From Candidatus Brocadiia bacterium (GTDB lineage: Bacteria > Planctomycetota > Uabimicrobiia > Uabimicrobiales > JABWCH01), in assembly GCA_013359215.1 (NCBI GenBank), contig JABWCH010000006.1:1-38533 (forward strand): DNA of 38,533 nucleotides, given 5' to 3'. The position numbers and the translations under genes are program-made. Below are positions 15,076 to 29,753 of the stretch, one piece after another. The notes under the pieces are model-generated. The model was not told the origin of the DNA. It ran no database searches and saw only the letters and a list, made by a program, of their open reading frames with translations. The first letter of the stretch is position 1; each line of letters opens with the position of its first letter.

Positions 15076-15155
15076 CCGCGAAAAACACAAAAGGCACGAA
15101 AAGAAATGGATGAATTTTTTTAAAATCATTTTCGTGTCTTTCGCATTTTTCGCAG
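15076..15155. repeat. CGCGAAAAACAC palindrome
   Basis: Left arm CGCGAAAAACACAAAAGGCA with CGAAAA, right arm TCGTGTCTTTCGCATTTTTC with GCAG. The arms pair imperfectly over about 27 bases, with an AT-rich centre. It lies 70 bases past the stop of the double PEP-CTERM gene. Confidence 0.6.
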
Positions 15156-15223: not shown

Positions 15224-16726
15224 TTAATTTGCAATGCCACAATGATTCTTAAGCAATTTTTTATGAATAAAATAGAGCAATAGGCTCAATCCCATAAAAA
15301 CAACGCTGCAAGGTTCTGGAATAGTCAAGAACTGGGTACTTGTGAGAGCCACATCGGAAACTCTGACTTCATCGAGAATTATATTAGGGGAACAACCTTC
15401 AGGATGAGAAAGATCAAGACCTGATTGCGGTGTTAAGCTGCCAGACCATGCTTGGGAAGCAACAACATTGCCATTCACATAAAATTTAATGCTGCTTCCA
15501 TCATAAGTCAATGCAATGTGATACCATGTATCCATCAAAGGTTTATAATTTGTGACAACCCAGCCTTGGCTGCCAGATGTAGTCGTGAGTCCATATCGAA
15601 AATCTTGTGTTGCTGTATTTATGGTGATTCCATCTATCCAGTTGACATAGTTCCTTGTTTCAATGATGTGGTTCCATGAGCCTGTAAGAGACTTTACATT
15701 CAATACTACTTCATAGGTAAGCTGCGTCCAGTTACCAGAGGGGCTAATTTGGATACTGTCGTTGTATGCATAATCATCAATTCCATCGAATTCAATGCCT
15801 TTATGGATTCCATCATCGCGATATACAGCATTGCCTACAGGAGTAGCATGATGGTTGTTTCCAGAATAGTCTAAAATAGAATTAGCACCAGAAGCTGCCT
15901 GGTTGTTTACACCTTCGTTGAATTTCCAATATGCCAGTGTCGCAGCATCACAAGATAACGACAATATCATAAAGGCTATGAAGAAAATGGATAAGCTTTT
16001 TTGGAGCATACTTTTCCGTTTGGCTTTGAGAAACCAACCTAATGCCATGCCAAGAGCTACGATAAGACAGCTTTGGATTTCGGGGACATTAGCAGTAATC
16101 AGAACATCGTCCAAATAGGATTGCCTGCCATTTTCTCTATTGTGGAATACAATATAGTTGCTAGGCATCACAGATGTGCTTGTTGTAGTGATCGTCAATG
16201 TATGGCCTGGTGTTCCTACTTTTGTCAAAGTAAAGGAAAGATTTGTACCATTGTCCATTATGTCGAAATCAAAGCTCTCTCCTGCATTGATGGTGTATGA
16301 CTGGCTTATAGACGTAGCCGATGCATTACCACGTGATAGAATAGACATGCTATCGCTGATTGCTGTAGCAAGGAATTCGATTCCATTTTGGGTTTCGCTG
16401 TAAGCACCTGTTGGAACTGCATCGCTACGTGTGAGGATTTGGAGGAAATCGTCGCTGGAAACGAATGTCCACCTGCCTCGGATTCTCAAATTCCATGTTA
16501 CAGGGTTGAATTCTTGTTTGGTAATCAGATATCCTCTGCCTGTAAGGAGGATTTGCTGGTTGGTTTCCTGAACACCAGGCGTTCCAACGATACCGCTTGT
16601 AAGTGCTGTCCATTTATTTGTATCGAGAACATTGTCGTTGAAGTTGTCTTGCAACAGAATCGTTTCAGCAGACAATGGTATCACGACAGCAAAAAGAATG
16701 AACAGCATTGTTTTGATGTTGATCAT
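15224..16726 (-). CDS. Double PEP-CTERM protein, apparent head-to-tail fusion with LamG domain
   Basis: A 500-residue open frame holding two complete exported proteins in series. Part one (1-239) has a signal peptide (about 1-20), a beta-rich domain beginning TILLQDNFNDNVLDTNKW, and a sorting-type tail VPEIQSC, hydrophobic helix, KAKRK. Part two starts at Met240 with a second signal peptide (SLSIFFIAFMILSLSCDA), then a LamG/concanavalin-like domain (about 270-460; YWKFNEG, YSGNNHHA, EFDGIDDYA, YHIALTYDGSSIKFYVNG). It ends with IPEPCS, a hydrophobic helix and HKK. The first ATG has a strong ribosome site (GAGGAG); the internal ATG at 16009 has only GGAAAAG very close. No stop separates the halves. 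PEP-CTERM proteins are normally anchored by exosortase; none is in the window. Confidence 0.85.
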   Translation of the reverse strand: MINIKTMLFILFAVVIPLSAETILLQDNFNDNVLDTNKWTALTSGIVGTPGVQETNQQILLTGRGYLITKQEFNPVTWNLRIRGRWTFVSSDDFLQILTRSDAVPTGAYSETQNGIEFLATAISDSMSILSRGNASATSISQSYTINAGESFDFDIMDNGTNLSFTLTKVGTPGHTLTITTTSTSVMPSNYIVFHNRENGRQSYLDDVLITANVPEIQSCLIVALGMALGWFLKAKRKSMLQKSLSIFFIAFMILSLSCDAATLAYWKFNEGVNNQAASGANSILDYSGNNHHATPVGNAVYRDDGIHKGIEFDGIDDYAYNDSIQISPSGNWTQLTYEVVLNVKSLTGSWNHIIETRNYVNWIDGITINTATQDFRYGLTTTSGSQGWVVTNYKPLMDTWYHIALTYDGSSIKFYVNGNVVASQAWSGSLTPQSGLDLSHPEGCSPNIILDEVRVSDVALTSTQFLTIPEPCSVVFMGLSLLLYFIHKKLLKNHCGIAN

Positions 16727-16805
16727 ATTTTCTCCTCAAAGTAAAAAAATCAAAAGAAGCTACAAAAGATAAGATCTGTCATCATTCAAATGAAAAATAC
16801 TTTTC

Positions 16806-16886
16806 ACCGCAGAGACACAGAGATCGCAGAGAATTCCAATTTATTTTTTTTTCTCTGCGTTCTTGCTTTCTCTCTGCCTCTGCGGT
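16806..16886. repeat. ACCGCAGAG palindrome
   Basis: ACCGCAGAG (16806-16814) pairs with CTCTGCGGT (16878-16886), and CGCAGAGAA (16825-16833) pairs with TTCTCTGCG (16851-16859). It lies between the two PEP-CTERM genes. Palindromes of the 'accgcagagacacagag' type are, as I recall, scattered in many environmental genomes. Confidence 0.75.
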
Positions 16887-16923
16887 AAAAAAATTCTTGA
16901 AAAAAATTTTTGAATGACACGCC

Positions 16924-18255
16924 CTAATTTTTCTTGAATTTTCTTGTATAAAAGCATACCAAGACAAAGAAGCCAAGCATGGTTATGGTGCAAGGCTCAG
17001 GGATAGTCGTGGCTTGTAAATTGAAAGAATAGGTAGATCCATTGCTTCCCAAAGCTGCATTCACATCTGTGGTAAATGTTAGTGTGGCATTGCGGACATA
17101 GCCATACTCATCCCTGCCTGTATAGTTATGCATAAAACGGATTGCTAAATTTTGCAACTGTCCTTTGCTGAGTTGTGTGCCAGGGGTGAAATTTTCTAAA
17201 GTGAAGTACGAGGCATCTGGCCCTGTGATCGTGGCACTTAGCAACGTCATATTTGTCAAGTTTCCCAAATCAGCATCAGGCGTAAGATTTTGTATGCTTA
17301 AGCTCTGGTTTGCTATGTACTCTACCTCTCCAAAGTTGATGGTAGAGCCTGCTGCTACAGAACTGCTGAAAACAGGGCTTACGCCTGTTCCTGTGAGTGT
17401 TCTGGTAATGTTTTGGGCATTGCTGGTAATAGAAACGTCTACGCTCTGTGTGCCTCTTGCTGTTGGTGAATAAGTAAAAGTCCTTGAGGCAGATGATCCA
17501 CTTCCTAAAGAAAAGCTTTGGCTGCCAGACGTAGGAGAGAAGTTTCCAGAAGCAGCGTTAATGTTACCAGTAAGCGTGCTTCCAGAAGCCCCTGTATTGC
17601 TAACAGTGATGCTAGAAGAAGAGCTTGTACCTACACGGACGTTCCCAAAATTAATGTTGTTGGCAGAAATAGAAGGACTCACAACCGTTCCTGTGGTTTG
17701 CACTTCGATGTTGTCTATCTGTCCAGCCTGGAAGGCACTATCAATGGCAGTACCAGAAGAACTTTGTGTGTATTTGATCAAAACTTCATTATATCCACCG
17801 CCTTGAAATCCAATGAAGCTTGGGCCTATGTTGACAACGCCAGAAAAAACATTAACACCATTGTTTCTGAGCATGTAATGCAGATAGGCAGTAGACCCGC
17901 CCCATCCGTTTCCAATCCGCATACCCATACTTCCAAAATCGCCATTGTTGGTAAGCGTTATTTTAGTATAGCCGTTGTCTCCTCCACTTGGATACCAGGA
18001 ACGACTACCAAAATAAGCACCACCGCCTGAATAGGTTGTCCATATATCGCTGCCATCGCCATTGATTTGCTGTACACGGATTCCATTTTCCGTATAGTCT
18101 GGAGTTGTACCACTACTCGATATCATGCCTTCAAATCCATTAAAGTTTGTCCGAGTAGAATCATTAATAAAATCTGTGGTATACAGCGTAATGGCATTTG
18201 CATTTCCTGCCAGCACTAGCAGAATTGTAAACAAAATAAAGTAAAAATGATGCAT
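16924..18255 (-). CDS. PEP-CTERM protein with choice-of-anchor-D domain
   Basis: A 443-residue secreted protein. Signal peptide at 1-21 (ending AGNANA). The N-terminal half is a Gly/Ser/Tyr-rich beta domain. An ASPM-SPD-2-Hydin/choice-of-anchor-D Ig-like domain (about 197-300) follows, with INFGNVRVGTSSSSSITVSN and RTFTYSPTARGTQSVDVSI. A second, similar domain begins at INFGEVEY. It ends with the sorting signal IPEPCT, a hydrophobic helix and TRKFKKN. A GGAGG six bases before the ATG makes the start firm. As in its neighbour, Cys follows the PEP. It probably ends up on the cell surface or in extracellular matrix after exosortase processing, which is family knowledge and not shown here. Confidence 0.88.
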   Translation of the reverse strand: MHHFYFILFTILLVLAGNANAITLYTTDFINDSTRTNFNGFEGMISSSGTTPDYTENGIRVQQINGDGSDIWTTYSGGGAYFGSRSWYPSGGDNGYTKITLTNNGDFGSMGMRIGNGWGGSTAYLHYMLRNNGVNVFSGVVNIGPSFIGFQGGGYNEVLIKYTQSSSGTAIDSAFQAGQIDNIEVQTTGTVVSPSISANNINFGNVRVGTSSSSSITVSNTGASGSTLTGNINAASGNFSPTSGSQSFSLGSGSSASRTFTYSPTARGTQSVDVSITSNAQNITRTLTGTGVSPVFSSSVAAGSTINFGEVEYIANQSLSIQNLTPDADLGNLTNMTLLSATITGPDASYFTLENFTPGTQLSKGQLQNLAIRFMHNYTGRDEYGYVRNATLTFTTDVNAALGSNGSTYSFNLQATTIPEPCTITMLGFFVLVCFYTRKFKKN

Positions 18256-18351: not shown

Positions 18352-19896
18352 CTATTTTGCCATTTTTCTTGTATAAACACCAACAAAGACTGTCATGAGA
18401 AATAGCCCAAGAAAGCCTTCCCACACAACAAAGTATTTGATCCAGTTGTCGAATTGGGGAGAAATGCCTTCTGTGCCTAAGGTTGTGAAGGTCATTGCAC
18501 TAAGATAAAAAGCTTGTGAGAAACTGATTCCCTGCATTCCTGGGGTACGAAGGGCAGAGTCGATTACAAACTGGTCTCCAAAAGCCCAGAATATGAGAGA
18601 AAACGAGAGGATTACCAGAAGAGCGAGTATGGCAACATTAGAAGGTTTTGTTCCATAGCCGCTGCCCAAATCAAAGAAAAGCCAGCTAAAGAATCTGCGC
18701 ATTGCGCTATCAATTCCCGTGACTTTTTCAGATTTACGCTCAGAACATCGGAAGTGGTAGTATGCCCAGTCGGCTGCATCATGGTTTCCTGTGATTTCGA
18801 AATTGCGGCGGAGCATAGCATAGACCTTTTTGGCGTTTGCATATTCTTTGCTAGAGTCGGAAAAAATCTTCCCTTCAATTTGTGCTTTTTCTATAATCAT
18901 GCATTCTGTTCTGGTGTCCTCTAGCTTGATTTTTTCCTGGATTTTGACATCTTTAAGGTCAAAGCGCATGGAAAATATGGCTTCTGAAAAATTCACTTCT
19001 TTATGGAAGACTGTTCCCCTAAGGTAGACATCATGGTGGAAAATAGATTTGGAAAAGTCTGCCATGTCCTGGAAAGAGCTTTCTTCCATGACAAAGCTAT
19101 TGAAAACCTCAAGCCCTGAAAAATCGGCTTTAGCCTTACAATCCAGATGGCTCAGATAAATATGGTCTTGGACATCGCAACCTCGGAAAATGAATTCTTC
19201 ATCGAATCTGGAGCGATGAAAGTAGCTTTTGCCTTGGAAAGAAACAACTTTGAATATGATTTTATTTTTGGAATACATATCTTCGAAGCGAGCTGTGTTG
19301 ATAGATGCATTTTCGAATGTTGCCCCATCTTCGAAGATGGTCTTGCGGAAAAAGGCATTTTCAAAAAAACGGCTTTTCTTGAAATTGGCTTTTCCCACAA
19401 AGCGTGTTTCCTGGAAAAAGGCTGTGTTGTGGAACATTATGTCTTCAAACCTGGAAGTATCCAGGAATTGAGATCCTTCAAAGCTCATTTTGCCCCGAAA
19501 TCTGACGCAAGGGAAAGAGGCTCTTTTTTCAAACCTGCATTTTTCCCAAAAGGCTTCTTCCAGGAACTCCACTCCTTTGGCTTGGAATTCATCCAGGAAG
19601 ACACAATTTTTAAAGGAAACAGACTTTTCAAAGATTGTTCCATTGTCCTCTGTATTCCAATCCACTTTGCCTAAAAAGGTGACTTCGGAAAAAACAAGAG
19701 GTGCTTTAAAAATACACTGCCTGATTTCCCATGCTTTCAACTGGCAATTGCTAAACTGGATAGGCTGGAGAAATATTTGCTTGACAAACGAAAGGTTTTC
19801 TGTCTGTATGCCTTGTATGGGCTTTCCTGCTTCTATCCATTTTGCTACTTGTTCGTTAGAAACGCTTTGAAAAGTTTGCTCATTTTGGTTTTCCAT
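18352..19896 (-). CDS. Pentapeptide-repeat protein with C-terminal ion-channel domain
   Basis: A 514-residue protein. Residues about 40-345 are pentapeptide-like repeats with a Phe every fifth position (for example FKKSRFFENAFFRKTIFEDGATF), forming a right-handed beta helix in the cytoplasm. A linker with VYAMLRRNFEITGNHDAADW follows, then a two-helix pore domain (about 395-514): helix VAILALLVILSFSLIFWAF, pore loop, helix GLFLMTVFVGV. The pore loop reads TFTTLGTEG, where potassium channels have TxGYG, so the selectivity filter (472-477) is atypical. I prefer ATG 19896 over the TTG at 19899, as AAAGGTG lies upstream. Fused pentapeptide-channel proteins are known in many bacteria; the gating stimulus is unknown. 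It is not confirmed to conduct ions. Confidence 0.82.
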   Translation of the reverse strand: MENQNEQTFQSVSNEQVAKWIEAGKPIQGIQTENLSFVKQIFLQPIQFSNCQLKAWEIRQCIFKAPLVFSEVTFLGKVDWNTEDNGTIFEKSVSFKNCVFLDEFQAKGVEFLEEAFWEKCRFEKRASFPCVRFRGKMSFEGSQFLDTSRFEDIMFHNTAFFQETRFVGKANFKKSRFFENAFFRKTIFEDGATFENASINTARFEDMYSKNKIIFKVVSFQGKSYFHRSRFDEEFIFRGCDVQDHIYLSHLDCKAKADFSGLEVFNSFVMEESSFQDMADFSKSIFHHDVYLRGTVFHKEVNFSEAIFSMRFDLKDVKIQEKIKLEDTRTECMIIEKAQIEGKIFSDSSKEYANAKKVYAMLRRNFEITGNHDAADWAYYHFRCSERKSEKVTGIDSAMRRFFSWLFFDLGSGYGTKPSNVAILALLVILSFSLIFWAFGDQFVIDSALRTPGMQGISFSQAFYLSAMTFTTLGTEGISPQFDNWIKYFVVWEGFLGLFLMTVFVGVYTRKMAK

Positions 19897-19921
19897 CAAA
19901 AGTCACCTTTCCTGTAAATTT

Positions 19922-20464
19922 TTAGCTTTTGGCCTTATCTATACCATCGTCATCGTCGTCATCGTCCATGCCATCTTCATCGTCTTCGTTATCATCGTCA
20001 TCATCGTCCATGCCATCTTCATCGTCTTCATATTCATTCTCTATATCATCATCTTCATCGTAGTCGTTCTCCATGCCATCTTCTTCTTTGTCTTCCTGGT
20101 CTTCCACACTTTCCATGGGAGGAACAGGAGAATCTTTGGTGACTTCCCTAAGCATCCTGCTCATTTCTATGCTTTTTTCAATAGAATGATCTTCGACAAA
20201 TTTTAGAATAGGTGTGTGGCGAAGGGCCAGTCTGTCGCCAAGTTTTGTCTGGATATGTCCTTTAGCATGTTCGATTCCTCTCATGACGGTTCTTTGTTGT
20301 GGCTTATCTCCTAAAATTGAGACGTAGACACTGCAATACCTGTTGTCTTTGGACAACTCTACTTTGGTCACCGAGGCAAATTTAATGCGAGGATCGCTCA
20401 TTTCATAGGTAATGATCTGCGCTAATAGCTGCTGGATTCTTTTTAATAGTTTTGGACTAGCCAT
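19922..20464 (-). CDS. rbfA: Ribosome-binding factor A with long acidic C-terminal tail
   Basis: RbfA helps mature the 5' end of 16S rRNA in the 30S subunit and is needed for cold adaptation in model species. The core (about 1-115) is the KH-like RbfA fold: LAQIITYEMSDPRI, VSILGD, HAKGHIQTKLGDRLALRHTP and ILKFVEDHSIEKS. A tail of about 60 residues (from 117) is almost all Asp and Glu with repeated DGM units, then ends IDKAKS. Typical RbfA proteins are about 110-130 residues. The tail is coded by an imperfect DNA repeat with a 42-base period. The gene is not in the usual nusA-infB context; upstream lies a palindromic repeat, downstream the ion-channel gene 23 bases away on the same strand. Confidence 0.9.
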   Translation of the reverse strand: MASPKLLKRIQQLLAQIITYEMSDPRIKFASVTKVELSKDNRYCSVYVSILGDKPQQRTVMRGIEHAKGHIQTKLGDRLALRHTPILKFVEDHSIEKSIEMSRMLREVTKDSPVPPMESVEDQEDKEEDGMENDYDEDDDIENEYEDDEDGMDDDDDDNEDDEDGMDDDDDDDGIDKAKS

Positions 20465-20753: not shown

Positions 20754-23700
20754 TTACGAAACTGTCTTGAGATTTTTACGGATTTTGCTGTATTCTTCAG
20801 AAATATTGTATAGCAGAAGATCATGGATGGCTTCATGCTTTGCCAATTCCTGAATCGTATTTTTTTGGATTGTGCCTGTTTGTAGCAGGGACTGGAACTG
20901 GCAGAAAGCCTGAATACTGTTTTCTAAAGAATCTGTCAATAAAAGGCCGCATCGATTGGAGGCAAAATCCATATCTTTAAGATAATGGGATGCTTCATCT
21001 TTTCCTTTTGCTTCCCATAAATCTGGCCGATCTTCCATGGTTTTTCGCACTTTTCTGGGCAGGGAGTTTTTGATTTTTTTAAAAAGGGCGAGTTCTTCTC
21101 CAGCAAATTTATCTTCGCTTCCTACAAAGGATTCCCTCATAAGATGGAAGTAAGTTTTAATTTCTTGCGGCTCTAGTTTAAAAGCTAGAACCTGGTTTTG
21201 TGCAATATAAAACAGGAATTTTGCCAGGAGAAAATACATAATCTCATCAGAAAAATTTTCCAGAAAAGGCGCGTTTAAGATCAAACTCGCAGGCTGTGTG
21301 TTTTCTATGTACACACGGGCTGTTTTTTTGGGGTTTACATAAATATCTATGGGCTGCATCCCCAGAATTTTTCTTATGCTCTCGGCTTGAGACAGAACTT
21401 TAAGGCTGTCGCCCACAAGGCGATCCTTGCGTTTAAGCCCATATTTGGTTTCTAAATCGGCTGGATAGATCTTGCTTACATGCTCTGAAGTGAGTGCCAG
21501 GATTTCATAGGACAAAGCACTTCTGTTCGGAACAAGATAGGCAAGCAAAGATTCATTATTGACAAACTGCGGTTTTTGAGGCGCAGAGCTTGCCATAAGT
21601 TCTTTTTCTTCTTCCACAAGCTCGCCTACAATGGCAATATTCTGGCAGGCTCTTAAAGCTAAATCCTGCTGTTTTTTCATCTGGAAAATTTTATAGAGAC
21701 AACGATAAGAAGCTGTTCTAAATGGTTCTCTATGCAAAAGATACGTATGCTCTTGAATACCTTCGTCGTAAAATGCAGGATCTTCTGACTCAATCGCAGC
21801 AAGAGCAGCATGGCTGGCTATATGGTTGCTGTCTAAAGCAAGGGCTTTCTTGAATTCCTGGATTGCTTCATTGCGCTTTCCAAAGCGTTCATAGTAAAGA
21901 TTTCCCAAAGCCAGATGTATGGGCAAACCTGCCATTTTCATGCTTTCAGGCAAATTTTGTAAAAACTCCTGGTATGCCTGCACTACAGAATCCCATTGTT
22001 GCAGCTTAGAATACGTATCAGCGATTCCGCGAATCGCAGGCAGCCATGAAGGATCTGCTTGCAATGCTTGTTGGTAAATGCGAATGGCTTCCTGGGTTTC
22101 GCCTTTAGCCTGAACAATCAGAGCCATGAGGCAACGGTTCTCTACTTTTTGTTGAGGCTCTTCCAGGCAGGTGTAATGCTTTTCGATCCATTCATAGGCT
22201 CTGTCCCATTCCTGAAGAGCAATGTATCCTTCTCCTAGATTTTTGAGGATGCCAGGATCTTCTACGCCCATACCCAATGCTTTAAGCCTGGCCTCAATGG
22301 CTTCTCTATGGCGATTCAATCGAGTCTGCACCTCTGCTATGGTCAATAAGGCACTTCTTCTTTCCTGGAAAGAAGAAAAATCGCTTCTGGCGGTTGTCTG
22401 TAAATATTTTAAAGCTTCCTCGTCTTCTCCCTTTTTCAGATGCAATTTCGACAGAGCTTGTATGCTTTCGGAATCTTCTGGTATATCAGCAAGAACTCTG
22501 CGATACCATTCAATGGCGGATTCATTTTGTCCTAGCTTCTCATAGATAATAGCAAGCCGCCTTACAATGTCTTTTTTGCCATCCTCCAGATTAGGGTGCT
22601 GATAGGCTCTTTGGTATATATCCAAGGCTTCCTGCCACTGGGTTTTATCAAAGCCCCACTGCGCCCTTTCAAAATAGAGAGATCCCAGGGAAACGAGAGC
22701 ATCGAGATTGTCTTCCTTGATTTTAAGTGCTGTGCTGTAACGGACAATCGCATCGTCTTTTCTGCTCAACTTTTCCGCCATAAAACCCCATTTATAATAG
22801 ATACTGGAAAGCTTGTCAATCTTATTCTTGTCTACCAATAAAACAAGCCTTCCAAAAAGAGGCTCTGCATGTGCAGGCTCGTTTTGCATGAAATAGATTT
22901 CAGCCATGGCTTCAATAGCAATGGTAGACTGGGGATCGATTTCCAAGGCTATCTGGAAAACTTCTTTGGATTTCTGGATGAGCTTGAGTTTGTTTTGGTA
23001 TAAAGACCCAAGATCATTGAGTGCCTCGACCTTTTCCGATGGGTCTTTAATATGGTTGATTTCCATGCTGATGTATTTTACAGCTTGTGTCCAGTCTTCA
23101 TTCAAAATTGCAAGACCTGTCAAAGCCTTCAGGGATTTTCTCAGTGTGGGCTGATAGTCAATGGACTCCAGGAACATTCGTTTGGCTTCTGTGTATTCAT
23201 GGAAGCGGTCGCGCTTTAAAATGCCCAACCGATAGCAAAGCTCTGCCTTTTCTTCCAAATCCTGGCTTACTTCGATTTCCTGGGTACAAATCTGAACCAG
23301 CTTTTCCCAATTTTTCTTGCGGAGATACAGCCAATCCAAAGATTTTAAAATATCCAGCCTCTGGTTATCCAGTCCAAGAGCAGATTCAAAAGCTTCAATT
23401 GCTTTATCAGGATCATCCAGTTCTTTTTCATACAGCATGCCTATATGCGCATATAGTTCCAGGCGTTCCTGGTTGTTTTCGCAGAAAAGAAGTTTTTGGT
23501 TAATCAAGTTTGCCAATTCGTGTAGTTTCCCCAAGCTTTTATAGAGATGATCCAAAGCTTGCAAAGCTTCTCTATGGTCAGGGTCAAGATCTAAAATTCT
23601 TTTGAAAACATCAATAGCGGTTTCTGGCTTTTTGATATGATCCTGGTACACAGCACCCAAAGAGAGAAGATAGGAAATCTGGTCTTTGGTATTTTCTTTT

Positions 23701-26700
23701 TTTTGGGCTTCTTCGATCAATATGTTATATACAACAATCAGCTTTTCCCAGGACTGGTAACGATTATAAAGATTAGAAAGGCACTTTACAGCCGATATAT
23801 TGCCTGGATCAAGCTCCAAAATGCGCTCATAGGATTTGATCGCCTGGTCATCTTCAAAGAGCCTTTTTTCCCAGGTTTCACCAATCGCGCTATGCAAATA
23901 GATGATTCTTTCTTTGTCGGTGATCAGCAAGATTTCCTTTTGGTAAAGCCCAATGAGTTTTTTGAAAAAACCCCAATCGAAATATAGCCTTTGCAAGGTA
24001 TGGATGATCTGAATATCATGAGGCGAAAGATCCATAGCCTGCTCATAGTATTTGATTGCTAGGTTTCCTTTGTGCAACTCTTTATCGTAGAGTTCTGCGA
24101 TTTTAAGATAAACGCTGATGAGTTGCTTATGGTCGCTCAGGTTCTCTTTTTTAGCTAGGAGTATGGTAATGAGCTTACCCCATTTTTTTTGGTTAGTCAA
24201 AAGCTCATCCAGTGCGTTGAGCGCATCCATTTGCTTATTGTCAATTTTCAAAACCTTGCTATAAGTTTCTACCGCAACTTCAGGATAGTTCAGATGCTTC
24301 CATTGTATAAAAGCAAGATACAAAAGCTTGGGCAAAAGATCTTCGTTTTTTTCCGTTACACGCAAGTCCTTTTCCAGGATTTCAACAAGCCCCTGGTAGT
24401 CTCCGACTTTTTCCTGAATGCGCATAATTCTTTCTGCCGTAGTACGATGAAAACCATGTCCCATAACTTTCAGATAGCATGTGAGTGCCTGGTGAGGCAT
24501 ATCCAGCTTTTCTTCCCAGTATTCCCCCATCTTGAGGTACAAAGGAGGTTTTTTCTTTTCGTCCACAAGGTGGACTTCGCCACTAAGCATTTCAATAGAA
24601 TCACCCCACCGCTTCTGTCTCTCGAAGATTTTGCGCATGCCATTCACTGCCATATAGTTTTTATTGTCCATACAATAGGCTATCTGGTAAGCAAGGAGGG
24701 CTTTGTTGTCATTATGGAGTTCTTTTTCCCAAAGCTCTCCTATTTTTAAATAAAGCCCCAAAACTTCGATGGAGTTTTTGCTAAGCTGGGCTGCAAGTTC
24801 GTAGATTTTAATCAAATATTCCCAATCCTTCAGATTGTTCAAAACCTCTACCATGCCAGACAGTGCCTCTTTGTTTGTGGGATCAAGCTTTATGGCCTTT
24901 TGGTAGCAAGCCTTTGCCAGATCCATATTTCCAAGCTGGCCTGCTAGAATTTTGGCACTTTCCAGGAAAAGGAAAATAAGACGTTCTTCTTTGCCTTCTT
25001 TGCTGATAAGCTCTGCTTCTTTCAAATAACAATCCACCATTTTCTGCGTTTGCCCGCTTTTTTTATAAAGGCTTTCCAGCTTAATGATGCTATTCAGATG
25101 ACTATCAACAAACTGGAGAATCCTCTCTCCATGAGAAATGGCTTTTTCTGTTCTCTGTAAATGCACATCATACACGTGGAGCAAGTCTTCATGCAATGGC
25201 AAAAGGTCAGGCTTTAGATCGCATAGAAGAATTTCCTTTTCTACGATTTCAGCATAGTTCTCCCATCTCTGAGAAATGCGCAGCAGGGTTTTGAGCCTTC
25301 TTAGAATGGCAAGATTTTTGGGCCTGGAAAGATGAGCCTCATAGAAATGCTCAATAGCGACATCAATATCATCCAGTTCTTCTTCCATCAGACAGGCAAG
25401 GTCAAGATGCACCTCAATCAAGCGGTTGCGGTCTTTTTGCAATTCAAGCTCTTTAAGGAACATGCTTTGCAAATCTTTGTATTGTTTTTTCTCTCTATAA
25501 AGGTCTTCCAGCCCACGTATAGCAATCAGGTTGTCTGGATCATTAGGAGGCAAGGCCATCTCCAAAACAGCCTGATAGCTTTTGATTGCTCCTGCTATAT
25601 CCTCTAGCTTGTATCTTTGCAATTCTGCAGATTCTAAATAGAGAGCAATTTTTCTTTCTTTTTCTAAATCAGTCAAAGTAAGCTCTCGCTGGTAAGCTTC
25701 TAAAAGCTCTTTGTATTGTTTTTCCAGACAATAGATGCTTTCCAGACTTTTGATCGCCAGGATATTTTGAGGTTCAAGGCTCAAAACTTTCCAATACCAG
25801 GGAATTGCCTTGGTACTCATATTCAAATGAGTTTCCAGAATTTTCCCTATTCTATAATGAAGTTCTACAAGGCGCAGGTTGTCTTTGCAAAAAGAGATTT
25901 CTTCCTGATAGAAGCGGGCCAGATCTGTCCATTCCTGCCGTCTTGTATAGAGAATTTCCAAAGCATTTCTTGCAGGCAAATACGTGTTGTCCAGAGCAAG
26001 AGCCTCTTTAAGGCAGACTTTCGCTTTATCATCGTTTTGCAATTTTTCCTGCCACAGGATGGCACATTCCAGACAAATTTCCTTTTGTTTATCAGGAGTG
26101 GAAATAGGGATTTGCCTTTGGAGTATATTGATCCAGCTTTCGTAGGATTCCCTTTTGCTATGTATCTCTGTTAGCTCGTTATATGCTTTTATATTATTAG
26201 AATGAATAGACAAAATTTTTTCCAGCGATTCTATGGCCTTTTCAAAATTGTATAGACGATTTTTTGCCAGATCGCTTTTTTCAAAGAGAAGGGCGATTTG
26301 TTCTGTCTGGCCGACTAAAGGCAATTCCATGTCTATGGTAGCAATGACATCTTCATGGTTCTCTATCTTGTAATAAAGGCGGCGTAAGGATCGGATAGAA
26401 TCTAAATGCTCTGGATAGTATTGCAGCAAAGTTTTATAATGAGCAATTGCCTTGGGAAAATCATAGAGCTTATCTTCGCACAACTGTGCCATTTGGATTA
26501 GAAGCGATTTTTTCTTTTCCTTATCTTCAACCAAAGAACACTCCATTTTCATGGTTTGCTCCAGGGCTTCAAAATTGGATAGCTTGAGATACATGTCTTT
26601 CAAAGCATAAATGGCTTCTAGTTCTGAAAAGTCCAGAGATAGTATATCCTGGTATATTTCGATTGCCTTGCTAAATGCCTGTAAATAATCCCTATAGATC

Positions 26701-29483
26701 GCGCCTAACTCAAACGCCAGGACAATAGTCTCTTCGCTGGACTCGATAATCGATATTTTCTTTTCATAGATTTTGGCTAAATCAGACCATTTTTCTTGCT
26801 GCCGATAGATTTTCAGCAAGCGATCTATGGAATGCATATTGTTACTATCCAGATCTATGATTTGACTATAGTATTCGCTTGCCTTGGCACTGTCTTTCAG
26901 ATTTTCATCCCAAATTTTGGCGCACATTAGTAACAAAGAAATTTTTTCTGACAGATTCTCTGCAAGACATGACATTTTCTGATAAACATGAGCCAGATTT
27001 TCATAGTCTTCTAGCTTTTTATATAAATTCCTTAATTTTTCTAATGCTAGCGAATGCTTTCTGTCCAGAGCAATGGTTTTGGAAAAATAGAGAATGGCCT
27101 GGGAGTCGTTTTGGAGCTTTTCCTGCCAGAGGCTGCCTATTTCATAATAGTATTCTTTTTCGATATTTACATCAGAGGATATGCTGGCCTTGGATTCTAA
27201 AATAAAAATCCATCTCCTGTATTCTTGCTGGATTTCATACAGCCTTTCCAGCTCTGCCAGAGTGTTTTCATCATTAGGGTAAAGATGGCGGGCCTTTTCG
27301 TAGTAGTGGATTGCTTTGGGATTTTTCTTTGTTTTTACCTCGGCAAGTCTGGCGATTTTATGATATAAGGCAAAAAGAGCTTGTGCTGGCAAAGGAAAAA
27401 TCTGGGCTTCTTTTTCGAGGAGAGTCAGAAGATGCTCCCATCTCTCTTGCTTTTCATAGAGCGTCTTTAAGCTCTCGAAAGCCACTTTATGGTCTACCTC
27501 TATTTTTAGAATTTCCAGAAAATGCTTTTCTTCCTCTTTGTCATTATCGAGACTATGGTACACAGAACACAAAGAAAGATGAAGGTCTATTCTCTCTTTG
27601 TTTTCAATGCTCAATTCTATCTGGCAGGAAACAATCTGGATGTATTCTTCCCACTGCTGCCTTAATTTGTATAGAGAGGCAAGAGATCGTATTGCCGTAA
27701 GGTTTCTGGGATTCAGGAAAATGACTTTTTCAAAAGACTCTACTGCCTTGTCTATATTTTCCAACCTTTGCTGGTATAAAAAGGCAATTTCCAGGTAGCC
27801 ATCTTCTGCTCTTTCCTCATTCAACTGCACAATGCTTTCCAGGCATTGGATGATTTTGCTATAGCTTTTTGTTTTCTGATAGTATTCATACAGAGTTTGC
27901 CATACATCCAGTTTCTGGGGAGAAATTTCTAAAATCTTAATATAGCATTCTATTGCTTGAGGCTCTTTATTTAGCTTTTCTTTGAGTATATCCGCCATCT
28001 GGAAATAGAAGGCAATCCTGGCATCAGGATCTACAGAAAGAGCAATCTGCTTTTGTATTGTCTGGATTAGCGAAGGATAGTTTTCCAAAGATACATAAAG
28101 AGATCTCAATTCCAATAAAGAGGGATGGTGTTGAGGGTATTTCTTGATAACATCTTCATAAATATCGGCGCAGGACTTAAGATCGTTGAGGCTTTTATAA
28201 ACAGAAGCAATTTTGTAGTAGGTTAGAATCTTTTCTTCATCGTTATCTAAAAGCTCGATTTCCTGGTAATACTTCTGAATCAATTCTTTAAAATTGCGTT
28301 GTTCTTTATAAAGTTCCTGTAGGATTCTTAAAAAAGCCAGATTTTTGGAATTCTTTTGGTGCGCCAGAGTATACCATTGGATTGCCATCTCCAGGTTGTT
28401 CAAATTTTTTCTGGCAATTTCAGCGATTTTGGTATAAAGCGAAATCTGGTATTCTATGTTTTGGGTTCTTTTGGCTTGTTTTTGGTATACTTCGGACAGC
28501 TTTTTCCAGTCTTTCTGAGAAAAATGGATTTCCTCCAGAGTTTTTAATATGCTATCGTCTTCCTGGATTTGCAAAGCTTCTTCATAGTATTTCACTGCTT
28601 CTGAATGGTTATTTAGCTTTTGTGACCATACTTCAGCAATATTAACAAGGATTTTATATTTTTGAGAGGAAAATTCAGGAAGCTGTAACTCTCTGAGCAA
28701 AATTTCAACTAGTTTATTCCATTGCTGGAGTTGCAAATATATATTTTCTAAAGATTTCAGTGTGTTTAAATGCCCAGGGGAAAGAGACAAAAGATTTTGA
28801 TAAAATTCTGCTGTCCTGCTGGAATCCTGCAACTGTTCTTTACTGATAAGTGCGCATTTTTCCCAAAAATGAATTTTAGATTTTATATCGGTAAAAGATG
28901 GAAGAACATTTTGGTAGAGGCGGATCAATTCTTCCCATTGTCTGTCTTCAGAATATAGTGTTTCTAATGCCCGTATTGCTTCTTCTTGTGTCTTTTGCAG
29001 TTCCAACACTTGCAATAAGGCTTTTTTGGCTTCAGCTTTATTTTGCAATTTTTCTTTGAAAAGATATGCAATTTTTAAAAGAATGGAAATTTTTCTGTTG
29101 CTTTCAGGAAAAAGCTCCCATTGCCTTCGCAAAATTTCCAAACATTTTGTGTAGTTTTCTTCTGCCTGGTAAAAACTGACAAGAATATCTCCATATTCTT
29201 GCTTTCTTGGCTGCAAAGAAAAAGCCTTGTTATAGGAAGAAACTGCCTTTTCTTTTTCTCCTAAATGCTTTTCATATATTTCACCGCTTTTAAAAAAAAG
29301 CTTTGCTGATTCAGCAGTGTCTTCTCTTTGGATAATATCCGCTCTAAATTCATAAAGCTCTGTCAATTTTCGCCAATTGTTAGAAAGAAAATATTGTTCT
29401 TCTAAACTTTTAAAAGCATTTACATCCTTGGGATTGCTTTTAAGAATTTCGGTTGTTTTTTTTATCTTTTCATCTATTTCCAT
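20754..29483 (-). CDS. Giant tetratricopeptide-repeat protein (2909 residues)
   Basis: One uninterrupted frame, nearly a quarter of the window. From the start to about residue 2600 it is a chain of TPR-like helix pairs, repeating roughly every 70-75 residues as a double unit: YLKIAELYDKEL, AIKYYEQAMDLSP, then a looser pair such as LERLYEIQQEY. By eye there are around 70 TPR motifs. The last 280 residues (from about SAPQKPQFVNNESLLAYLVP) lack repeats and look like a separate globular domain with no catalytic motif I know. No signal peptide or transmembrane segment is seen, so it is probably a cytoplasmic scaffold. I chose the ATG at 29483 (GGAG eight bases before) over 29540. Large TPR proteins of this style occur in myxobacteria and Planctomycetota; their function is unclear. 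Confidence 0.9.
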   Translation of the reverse strand: MEIDEKIKKTTEILKSNPKDVNAFKSLEEQYFLSNNWRKLTELYEFRADIIQREDTAESAKLFFKSGEIYEKHLGEKEKAVSSYNKAFSLQPRKQEYGDILVSFYQAEENYTKCLEILRRQWELFPESNRKISILLKIAYLFKEKLQNKAEAKKALLQVLELQKTQEEAIRALETLYSEDRQWEELIRLYQNVLPSFTDIKSKIHFWEKCALISKEQLQDSSRTAEFYQNLLSLSPGHLNTLKSLENIYLQLQQWNKLVEILLRELQLPEFSSQKYKILVNIAEVWSQKLNNHSEAVKYYEEALQIQEDDSILKTLEEIHFSQKDWKKLSEVYQKQAKRTQNIEYQISLYTKIAEIARKNLNNLEMAIQWYTLAHQKNSKNLAFLRILQELYKEQRNFKELIQKYYQEIELLDNDEEKILTYYKIASVYKSLNDLKSCADIYEDVIKKYPQHHPSLLELRSLYVSLENYPSLIQTIQKQIALSVDPDARIAFYFQMADILKEKLNKEPQAIECYIKILEISPQKLDVWQTLYEYYQKTKSYSKIIQCLESIVQLNEERAEDGYLEIAFLYQQRLENIDKAVESFEKVIFLNPRNLTAIRSLASLYKLRQQWEEYIQIVSCQIELSIENKERIDLHLSLCSVYHSLDNDKEEEKHFLEILKIEVDHKVAFESLKTLYEKQERWEHLLTLLEKEAQIFPLPAQALFALYHKIARLAEVKTKKNPKAIHYYEKARHLYPNDENTLAELERLYEIQQEYRRWIFILESKASISSDVNIEKEYYYEIGSLWQEKLQNDSQAILYFSKTIALDRKHSLALEKLRNLYKKLEDYENLAHVYQKMSCLAENLSEKISLLLMCAKIWDENLKDSAKASEYYSQIIDLDSNNMHSIDRLLKIYRQQEKWSDLAKIYEKKISIIESSEETIVLAFELGAIYRDYLQAFSKAIEIYQDILSLDFSELEAIYALKDMYLKLSNFEALEQTMKMECSLVEDKEKKKSLLIQMAQLCEDKLYDFPKAIAHYKTLLQYYPEHLDSIRSLRRLYYKIENHEDVIATIDMELPLVGQTEQIALLFEKSDLAKNRLYNFEKAIESLEKILSIHSNNIKAYNELTEIHSKRESYESWINILQRQIPISTPDKQKEICLECAILWQEKLQNDDKAKVCLKEALALDNTYLPARNALEILYTRRQEWTDLARFYQEEISFCKDNLRLVELHYRIGKILETHLNMSTKAIPWYWKVLSLEPQNILAIKSLESIYCLEKQYKELLEAYQRELTLTDLEKERKIALYLESAELQRYKLEDIAGAIKSYQAVLEMALPPNDPDNLIAIRGLEDLYREKKQYKDLQSMFLKELELQKDRNRLIEVHLDLACLMEEELDDIDVAIEHFYEAHLSRPKNLAILRRLKTLLRISQRWENYAEIVEKEILLCDLKPDLLPLHEDLLHVYDVHLQRTEKAISHGERILQFVDSHLNSIIKLESLYKKSGQTQKMVDCYLKEAELISKEGKEERLIFLFLESAKILAGQLGNMDLAKACYQKAIKLDPTNKEALSGMVEVLNNLKDWEYLIKIYELAAQLSKNSIEVLGLYLKIGELWEKELHNDNKALLAYQIAYCMDNKNYMAVNGMRKIFERQKRWGDSIEMLSGEVHLVDEKKKPPLYLKMGEYWEEKLDMPHQALTCYLKVMGHGFHRTTAERIMRIQEKVGDYQGLVEILEKDLRVTEKNEDLLPKLLYLAFIQWKHLNYPEVAVETYSKVLKIDNKQMDALNALDELLTNQKKWGKLITILLAKKENLSDHKQLISVYLKIAELYDKELHKGNLAIKYYEQAMDLSPHDIQIIHTLQRLYFDWGFFKKLIGLYQKEILLITDKERIIYLHSAIGETWEKRLFEDDQAIKSYERILELDPGNISAVKCLSNLYNRYQSWEKLIVVYNILIEEAQKKENTKDQISYLLSLGAVYQDHIKKPETAIDVFKRILDLDPDHREALQALDHLYKSLGKLHELANLINQKLLFCENNQERLELYAHIGMLYEKELDDPDKAIEAFESALGLDNQRLDILKSLDWLYLRKKNWEKLVQICTQEIEVSQDLEEKAELCYRLGILKRDRFHEYTEAKRMFLESIDYQPTLRKSLKALTGLAILNEDWTQAVKYISMEINHIKDPSEKVEALNDLGSLYQNKLKLIQKSKEVFQIALEIDPQSTIAIEAMAEIYFMQNEPAHAEPLFGRLVLLVDKNKIDKLSSIYYKWGFMAEKLSRKDDAIVRYSTALKIKEDNLDALVSLGSLYFERAQWGFDKTQWQEALDIYQRAYQHPNLEDGKKDIVRRLAIIYEKLGQNESAIEWYRRVLADIPEDSESIQALSKLHLKKGEDEEALKYLQTTARSDFSSFQERRSALLTIAEVQTRLNRHREAIEARLKALGMGVEDPGILKNLGEGYIALQEWDRAYEWIEKHYTCLEEPQQKVENRCLMALIVQAKGETQEAIRIYQQALQADPSWLPAIRGIADTYSKLQQWDSVVQAYQEFLQNLPESMKMAGLPIHLALGNLYYERFGKRNEAIQEFKKALALDSNHIASHAALAAIESEDPAFYDEGIQEHTYLLHREPFRTASYRCLYKIFQMKKQQDLALRACQNIAIVGELVEEEKELMASSAPQKPQFVNNESLLAYLVPNRSALSYEILALTSEHVSKIYPADLETKYGLKRKDRLVGDSLKVLSQAESIRKILGMQPIDIYVNPKKTARVYIENTQPASLILNAPFLENFSDEIMYFLLAKFLFYIAQNQVLAFKLEPQEIKTYFHLMRESFVGSEDKFAGEELALFKKIKNSLPRKVRKTMEDRPDLWEAKGKDEASHYLKDMDFASNRCGLLLTDSLENSIQAFCQFQSLLQTGTIQKNTIQELAKHEAIHDLLLYNISEEYSKIRKNLKTVS

Positions 29484-29753
29484 AGCATATTCTCCAGCAT
29501 TGAGGAGATTCAGAAGGTTGGAACTACATTTTACAAGCAAAAATTTTTTATAAAAATAAATTTTTAGCTATATTACGATAAACAAGCATAAAATTTCAAG
29601 CACAAAATATTTCTTTTGGCTGCAAACGCAGAGTATTCTGCATTTTTTATTATTTCTACGTATTATAAATTAGCTCAATCTTTTTGTATTATAGAAAAAA
29701 AATATTTAAATTCCTATATTTTTTTTAATCCTTCTTTTAAAATTGATTATATT

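Follow-up and report, generated by a model that had tools for sequence, protein, structure and literature searches.

A reading frame with two consecutive PEP-CTERM units in a planctomycete draft genome and similar frames in its phylum

PEP-CTERM tails usually close a protein, and 87% of them were found less than 10 residues from its end (Haft et al., 2006; PMC1569441). The DNA stretch analyzed here (38,533 nucleotides, hereafter the window) carries an ORF in which such a tail is followed, in the same frame, by a second signal peptide, a second exported domain and a second tail. This layout raises the question of whether the frame is authentic, whether it yields one chain or two separately initiated proteins, and how an internal sorting signal could be handled.

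Layout of the double-unit ORF and its neighborhood

A sequence-only reading of the window had described two PEP-CTERM proteins fused in one frame. This description proved accurate, as all 500 codons are open and both tails, a signal peptide at Met240 and a LamG domain were found (Table 1); the strand, which it did not give, is minus (16726 -> 15224), the plus-strand translation of 15224-16726 being riddled with stops. Met240 (codon 16009-16007), directly preceded by Ser239, opens a typical signal peptide, and Laminin_G_3 (PF13385) matches residues 322-464 (E = 2.9e-12; 47.4 bits vs. a curated cut-off of 27.6). A PDB sequence search returned weak matches in the LamG region only.

The terminal tail of unit B, recognized by pattern, has the motif, helix and basic cluster near the C-terminus that define PEP-CTERM. 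The tail of unit A likewise has a PEP-like motif, a hydrophobic helix and a basic cluster, and 261 in-frame residues come after it; its position would become approximately C-terminal only if the chain were cut after signal peptide 2. Against a profile of tail and signal peptide junctions this tail gives E = 5e-26, a value for a profile in which the window junction is itself one row. The PF07589 profile reported neither tail of the ORF, even at E = 10, which indicates that the internal motif is off-consensus; it lacks the second P of PEP. The AlphaFold2 model (single sequence; pLDDT 36) has helices at residues 216-234 and 238-281 with a break at 235-237, which fits a hairpin and is not counted here as evidence.

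Table 1. Features of the double-unit ORF and of the gap upstream of it
Feature	Position	Strand	Remarks
Whole double-unit ORF (P0001), 500 aa	15224..16726	-	Translation
Signal peptide 1, residues 1-20	16667..16726	-	Strong SD gaggagaaaatATG ahead, -8.6 kcal/mol
Unit A domain, residues 21-213	16088..16666	-	No Pfam family; beta-rich-looking
Internal PEP-CTERM-like tail, residues 214-239	16010..16087	-	VPEIQSC / hydrophobic helix / KAKRKS
Signal peptide 2, residues 240-261	15944..16009	-	MLQKSLSIFFIAFMILSLSCDA; CDA site; internal ATG, weak SD, -3.5 kcal/mol
Unit B with LamG domain, residues 262-468	15323..15943	-	PF13385
C-terminal PEP-CTERM tail, residues 469-500	15227..15322	-	IPEPCS / helix / HKKLLK
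28-nt imperfect inverted repeat, upstream intergenic gap	16801..16891	none	Sequence
Upstream neighbor, separate PEP-CTERM protein	16924..18255	-	IPEP tail and choice-of-anchor D domain; gap of 197 bp to the double-unit ORF

The reading frames beside the double-unit ORF are intact, and between the two units there is no intergenic spacer and no hairpin like the upstream inverted repeat. This repeat contains a CGCAGAGACACAGAG motif, of which eight further copies occur in approximately 1 Mb of the genome, and a second repeat family, CGAAAAACACAAAAGGCACGAAA, is present at about position 15079. Three other minus-strand ORFs were characterized by eye: a pentapeptide-repeat-like protein with an ion-channel-like C-terminal segment (18352-19899), an RbfA-like ORF extended at its C-terminus by a long stretch rich in Asp and Glu (19922-20464) and a TPR-like repeat protein of 2928 amino acids (20754-29540).

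Double units in the same genome and across the phylum

The genome of the window encodes an exosortase (PF09721 match at contig C247, E = 1e-62) and about 120 ORFs with a terminal PEP-CTERM tail; a PF07589 search gave 109 matches at E up to 10, with 63 over the curated cut-off. We surveyed approximately 1.0 Mb around PEP-CTERM matches, out of 6.39 Mb, and scanned all frames of this DNA for an internal tail followed by a signal-peptide-like segment. Two of about 123 PEP-CTERM ORFs were double units: the one in the window and another on contig C51. The latter encodes a 511 amino acid protein in which a LamG unit ending in VPEANTF..RRIF runs seamlessly into a second signal peptide (MKHLISLFFLL) and a LamG unit with a VPEPYSF tail. 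In a tree of LamG domains the second halves of the two ORFs do not group; given the long branches and the low support, an independent origin of the two fusions is likely, not proven. Internal tails that the pattern scan picked out in transport and other membrane proteins were discarded as ordinary transmembrane helices.

The scan also identified an orphan tail, NIPEPSGLVLFAISLCCFLWRKN, on contig C423 (locus L167, minus strand, frame from 11150), the upstream body of which is missing and which continues in frame into the next LamG gene. Further orphan PEP-CTERM tails were seen on contig C460 of this genome and on contig C357 of the nearer relative G001.

The junction was compared using paralogues of the halves. 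Unit A has one weak relative (27% identity over 178 amino acids, E = 2.8e-8), a tailless protein of genome G018 that stands on its own and carries a lipoprotein-like signal, and a whole-protein search of genome contigs returned LamG relatives only, mostly from Chryseobacterium, and no double unit. The sequence-only reading had allowed that the middle segment might be an ordinary internal transmembrane helix of one conserved protein. This was tested and not seen, the relatives of each half, including the LamG paralogues of unit B, being separate proteins.

No double unit was found in the parts of three nearer relatives (G001, G004 and G005) that were surveyed, which hold about 119 PEP-CTERM genes; the difference from the two in about 123 is not significant. 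The junction profile was then used to search 392 genomes from the phylum, judged by gene content to be probably Planctomycetota, and revealed at least four more double units in two distant lineages, a count that is a lower bound because 16 candidates were scored per genome. Three of them are in G159, from an order represented by two genomes, on contigs C26 (frame truncated at its 5' end by the end of the contig), C226 (truncated likewise at its 3' end) and C239; the internal tail of C26 is the best PF07589 match of its genome (34.8 bits). The fourth, on contig C36 of G079, encodes a 1241 amino acid protein comprising, with domain names assigned by eye, a signal peptide, a sulfatase, a dockerin, VPEPG/helix/RRRR, a second signal peptide, a second exported unit, a dockerin and a VPEP tail. 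That the same layout is found in at least five further frames, the one on C51 included, argues for more than chance.

These data bear on whether a stop codon or an indel between two separate genes was simply lost by sequencing or assembly error. The draft assembly is fragmented, with 576 contigs and a completeness of 85%, and one base would be enough. Against this, the junction DNA occurs only once in the 6.39 Mb of draft sequence, so that no repeat favors a mis-join there, and the same architecture occurs at no fewer than six junctions in three assemblies. Moreover, ordinary second genes should keep normal SDs and starts, and five of the six do not. We consider such an error very improbable; the recurrent layout looks like a small polyprotein split by the export machinery rather than a sequencing accident.

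Translation, origin and fate of the fused frame

If the frame is authentic, its second unit could be made as part of one chain or from a start of its own. SD energies, computed with an assumed anti-SD sequence rather than one read from the 16S rRNA of this genome, had a median of -7.3 kcal/mol at 106 PEP-CTERM starts chosen blind to the SD and of -1.75 at internal ATG controls (n = 424). The internal ATGs of the window (16009) and of C51 have values of -3.5 and -2.8 kcal/mol, and only 1.9 and 0.9% of the starts, respectively, are as weak. The sequence-only reading had offered re-initiation at 16009 as a source of two products. This proposal is not supported, since re-initiation presupposes a termination event, for which the frame offers no codon between the units, and the SD at 16009 is of background strength.

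Ribosomes could instead initiate de novo at Met240, in which case the fused frame would functionally still be two genes. In favor of two starts, C239 of G159 has a full AAAGGAGG SD before an in-frame ATG (-11.8), so that its second unit could start by itself; the orphan-tail locus on C423 has a usable SD (-6.4), and overlapping tandem genes in the genome of the window carry SDs inside basic-tail codons. Other junctions point the other way: besides the background SDs of the window and C51, the C26 and C226 junctions lack any ATG, GTG or TTG in the stretch from the tail to the h-region of the internal signal peptide. At the C36 junction the only ATG is preceded by an SD of background strength and followed by no basic residues. 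Separate initiation as the source of two products is thus unlikely in our view, and ribosomes starting at 16726 meet no stop, so the fused chain would be made even with some internal initiation.

How the frame arose is suggested by its single-unit counterparts. The double-unit frame may derive from two tightly packed tandem PEP-CTERM genes that lost the intervening stop codon, a possibility already raised from the sequence alone. As an origin this is plausible, given that tight tandem PEP-CTERM genes are common in this genome and some are one base from fusion. In 13 of 22 same-strand PEP-CTERM pairs the genes are no more than 24 nt apart; those of two pairs share an ATGA and those of one pair overlap by 7 nt. 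The two genes of the pair on C216, ggtTAAactATG, share a frame and are separated by 3 nt, a single substitution being enough to join them, and the layout of this pair is close to that of the window junction, cggAAAagtATG. The gene on C423 is 50% identical to a C216 gene whose start lies in an ATGA overlap, and one extra base in such an overlap would put the ATG in frame and remove the stop, a plausible path to fusion judging from the sequences. In the tandem pairs at L154, L129 and L186, which have ATGA or 7-nt overlaps, basic-tail codons (e.g., AGGAGAAAA) double as the SD of the next gene.

A recent stop loss might also have produced a protein that does not function or is badly sorted, and that is on its way to loss. 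Fusions are rare, which fits tolerated accidents as well as selection, and PEP-CTERM genes turn over fast and leave debris, such as the bodiless orphan tails noted above. The missing proline of the internal motif in the window would agree with decay, as would the proposal that tails at internal positions, of which there are few, may not function (Haft et al., 2006; PMC1569441). Nevertheless, the complete fusions have open frames in both halves, each closing with an intact signal, C26 has an internal tail that outscores every other PF07589 match in its genome, and two cases have no second start codon, which suggests that fusions persisted. Decay is accordingly an explanation to which we give little credence.

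A processing model and its relation to known systems

We return to translation as a single chain. The sequence-only reading had listed, as one option, a protein made on purpose that crosses the membrane twice and is processed at two sites; one chain of this kind is the best-supported product, purpose aside. It had also expected a sorting signal in mid-chain not to work, a premise rendered doubtful by a report stating that C-terminal sorting tags function mid-protein, with reference to studies of LPXTG sortase and of the archaeosortase ArtA (Guo, Haft and Wall, 2025; PMC11980579).

In the model that we regard as probable, the ORF would be translated from 16726 as one chain and signal peptide 1 would export unit A. 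The internal tail helix would enter from the periplasm and span the inner membrane, its basic end KAKRKS staying cytoplasmic, and signal peptide 2 would start in the cytoplasm and go out as the second leg, so that unit B is exported too. With one helix going in and the other out, the two would form a tight hairpin whose turn is positively charged and cytoplasmic, and both domains would lie outside. Signal peptidase I would cut after signal peptide 2 (candidate site CDA|A) and exosortase would cut unit A at the VPE motif (candidate site), so that two surface proteins of the ordinary kind would remain and the hairpin would be discarded. We infer the topology, single-chain translation in vivo, the path of origin and both cuts. 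A [small]-x-A site follows the core in all six internal signal peptides found, vs. 31% of internal hydrophobic control segments. Together with the exosortase gene, the recurrent layout, the intact frame and the poor internal start, these sites support processing as the best reading.

With at least six two-unit frames known from three lineages, and no second start codon in two of these frames, it seems that concatenated substrates are tolerated or used by the system. A wider claim, that these bacteria repeatedly join tailed surface proteins into polyproteins with a disposable hairpin and fixed 1:1 delivery, exosortase acting on internal signals, is put forward only tentatively. Double units make it testable whether exosortase needs a free C-terminus, and they caution against assuming, in gene calling and in proteomics pipelines, that an ORF always corresponds to a single mature surface protein rather than two.

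No description of double PEP-CTERM units turned up in the literature that was searched. Cleavage at an internal signal peptide occurs in the Bradyrhizobium cytochrome b/c1 and flavivirus prM-E precursors, in which, as in the proposed hairpin, an anchor helix is followed by the signal peptide of the next unit, cut by signal peptidase; unlike in our model, there is no sortase-type cut and the upstream unit stays membrane-bound. With described PEP-CTERM/exosortase proteins (PMC1569441) the window ORF shares the signal peptide, a variable exported domain, the PEP-like motif with helix and basic end, and a genomic exosortase, but those proteins are one unit with the tail near the C-terminus, whereas here a complete second unit comes after the tail. 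A Haloferax ArtA substrate (Abdul Halim, 2017, as cited in PMC11980579) is similar in that a non-C-terminal tripartite signal is reportedly processed by an exosortase-type archaeal enzyme, and differs in being archaeal and in its signal motif. Finally, one internal MYXO-CTERM protein, MXAN_5598, has been described and gene fusion proposed for it (PMC11980579); its tag and protease (myxosortase) are different and its second part is an outer-membrane barrel/OmpA protein, and it is a single case, compared with the six or more two-unit frames of the present survey.
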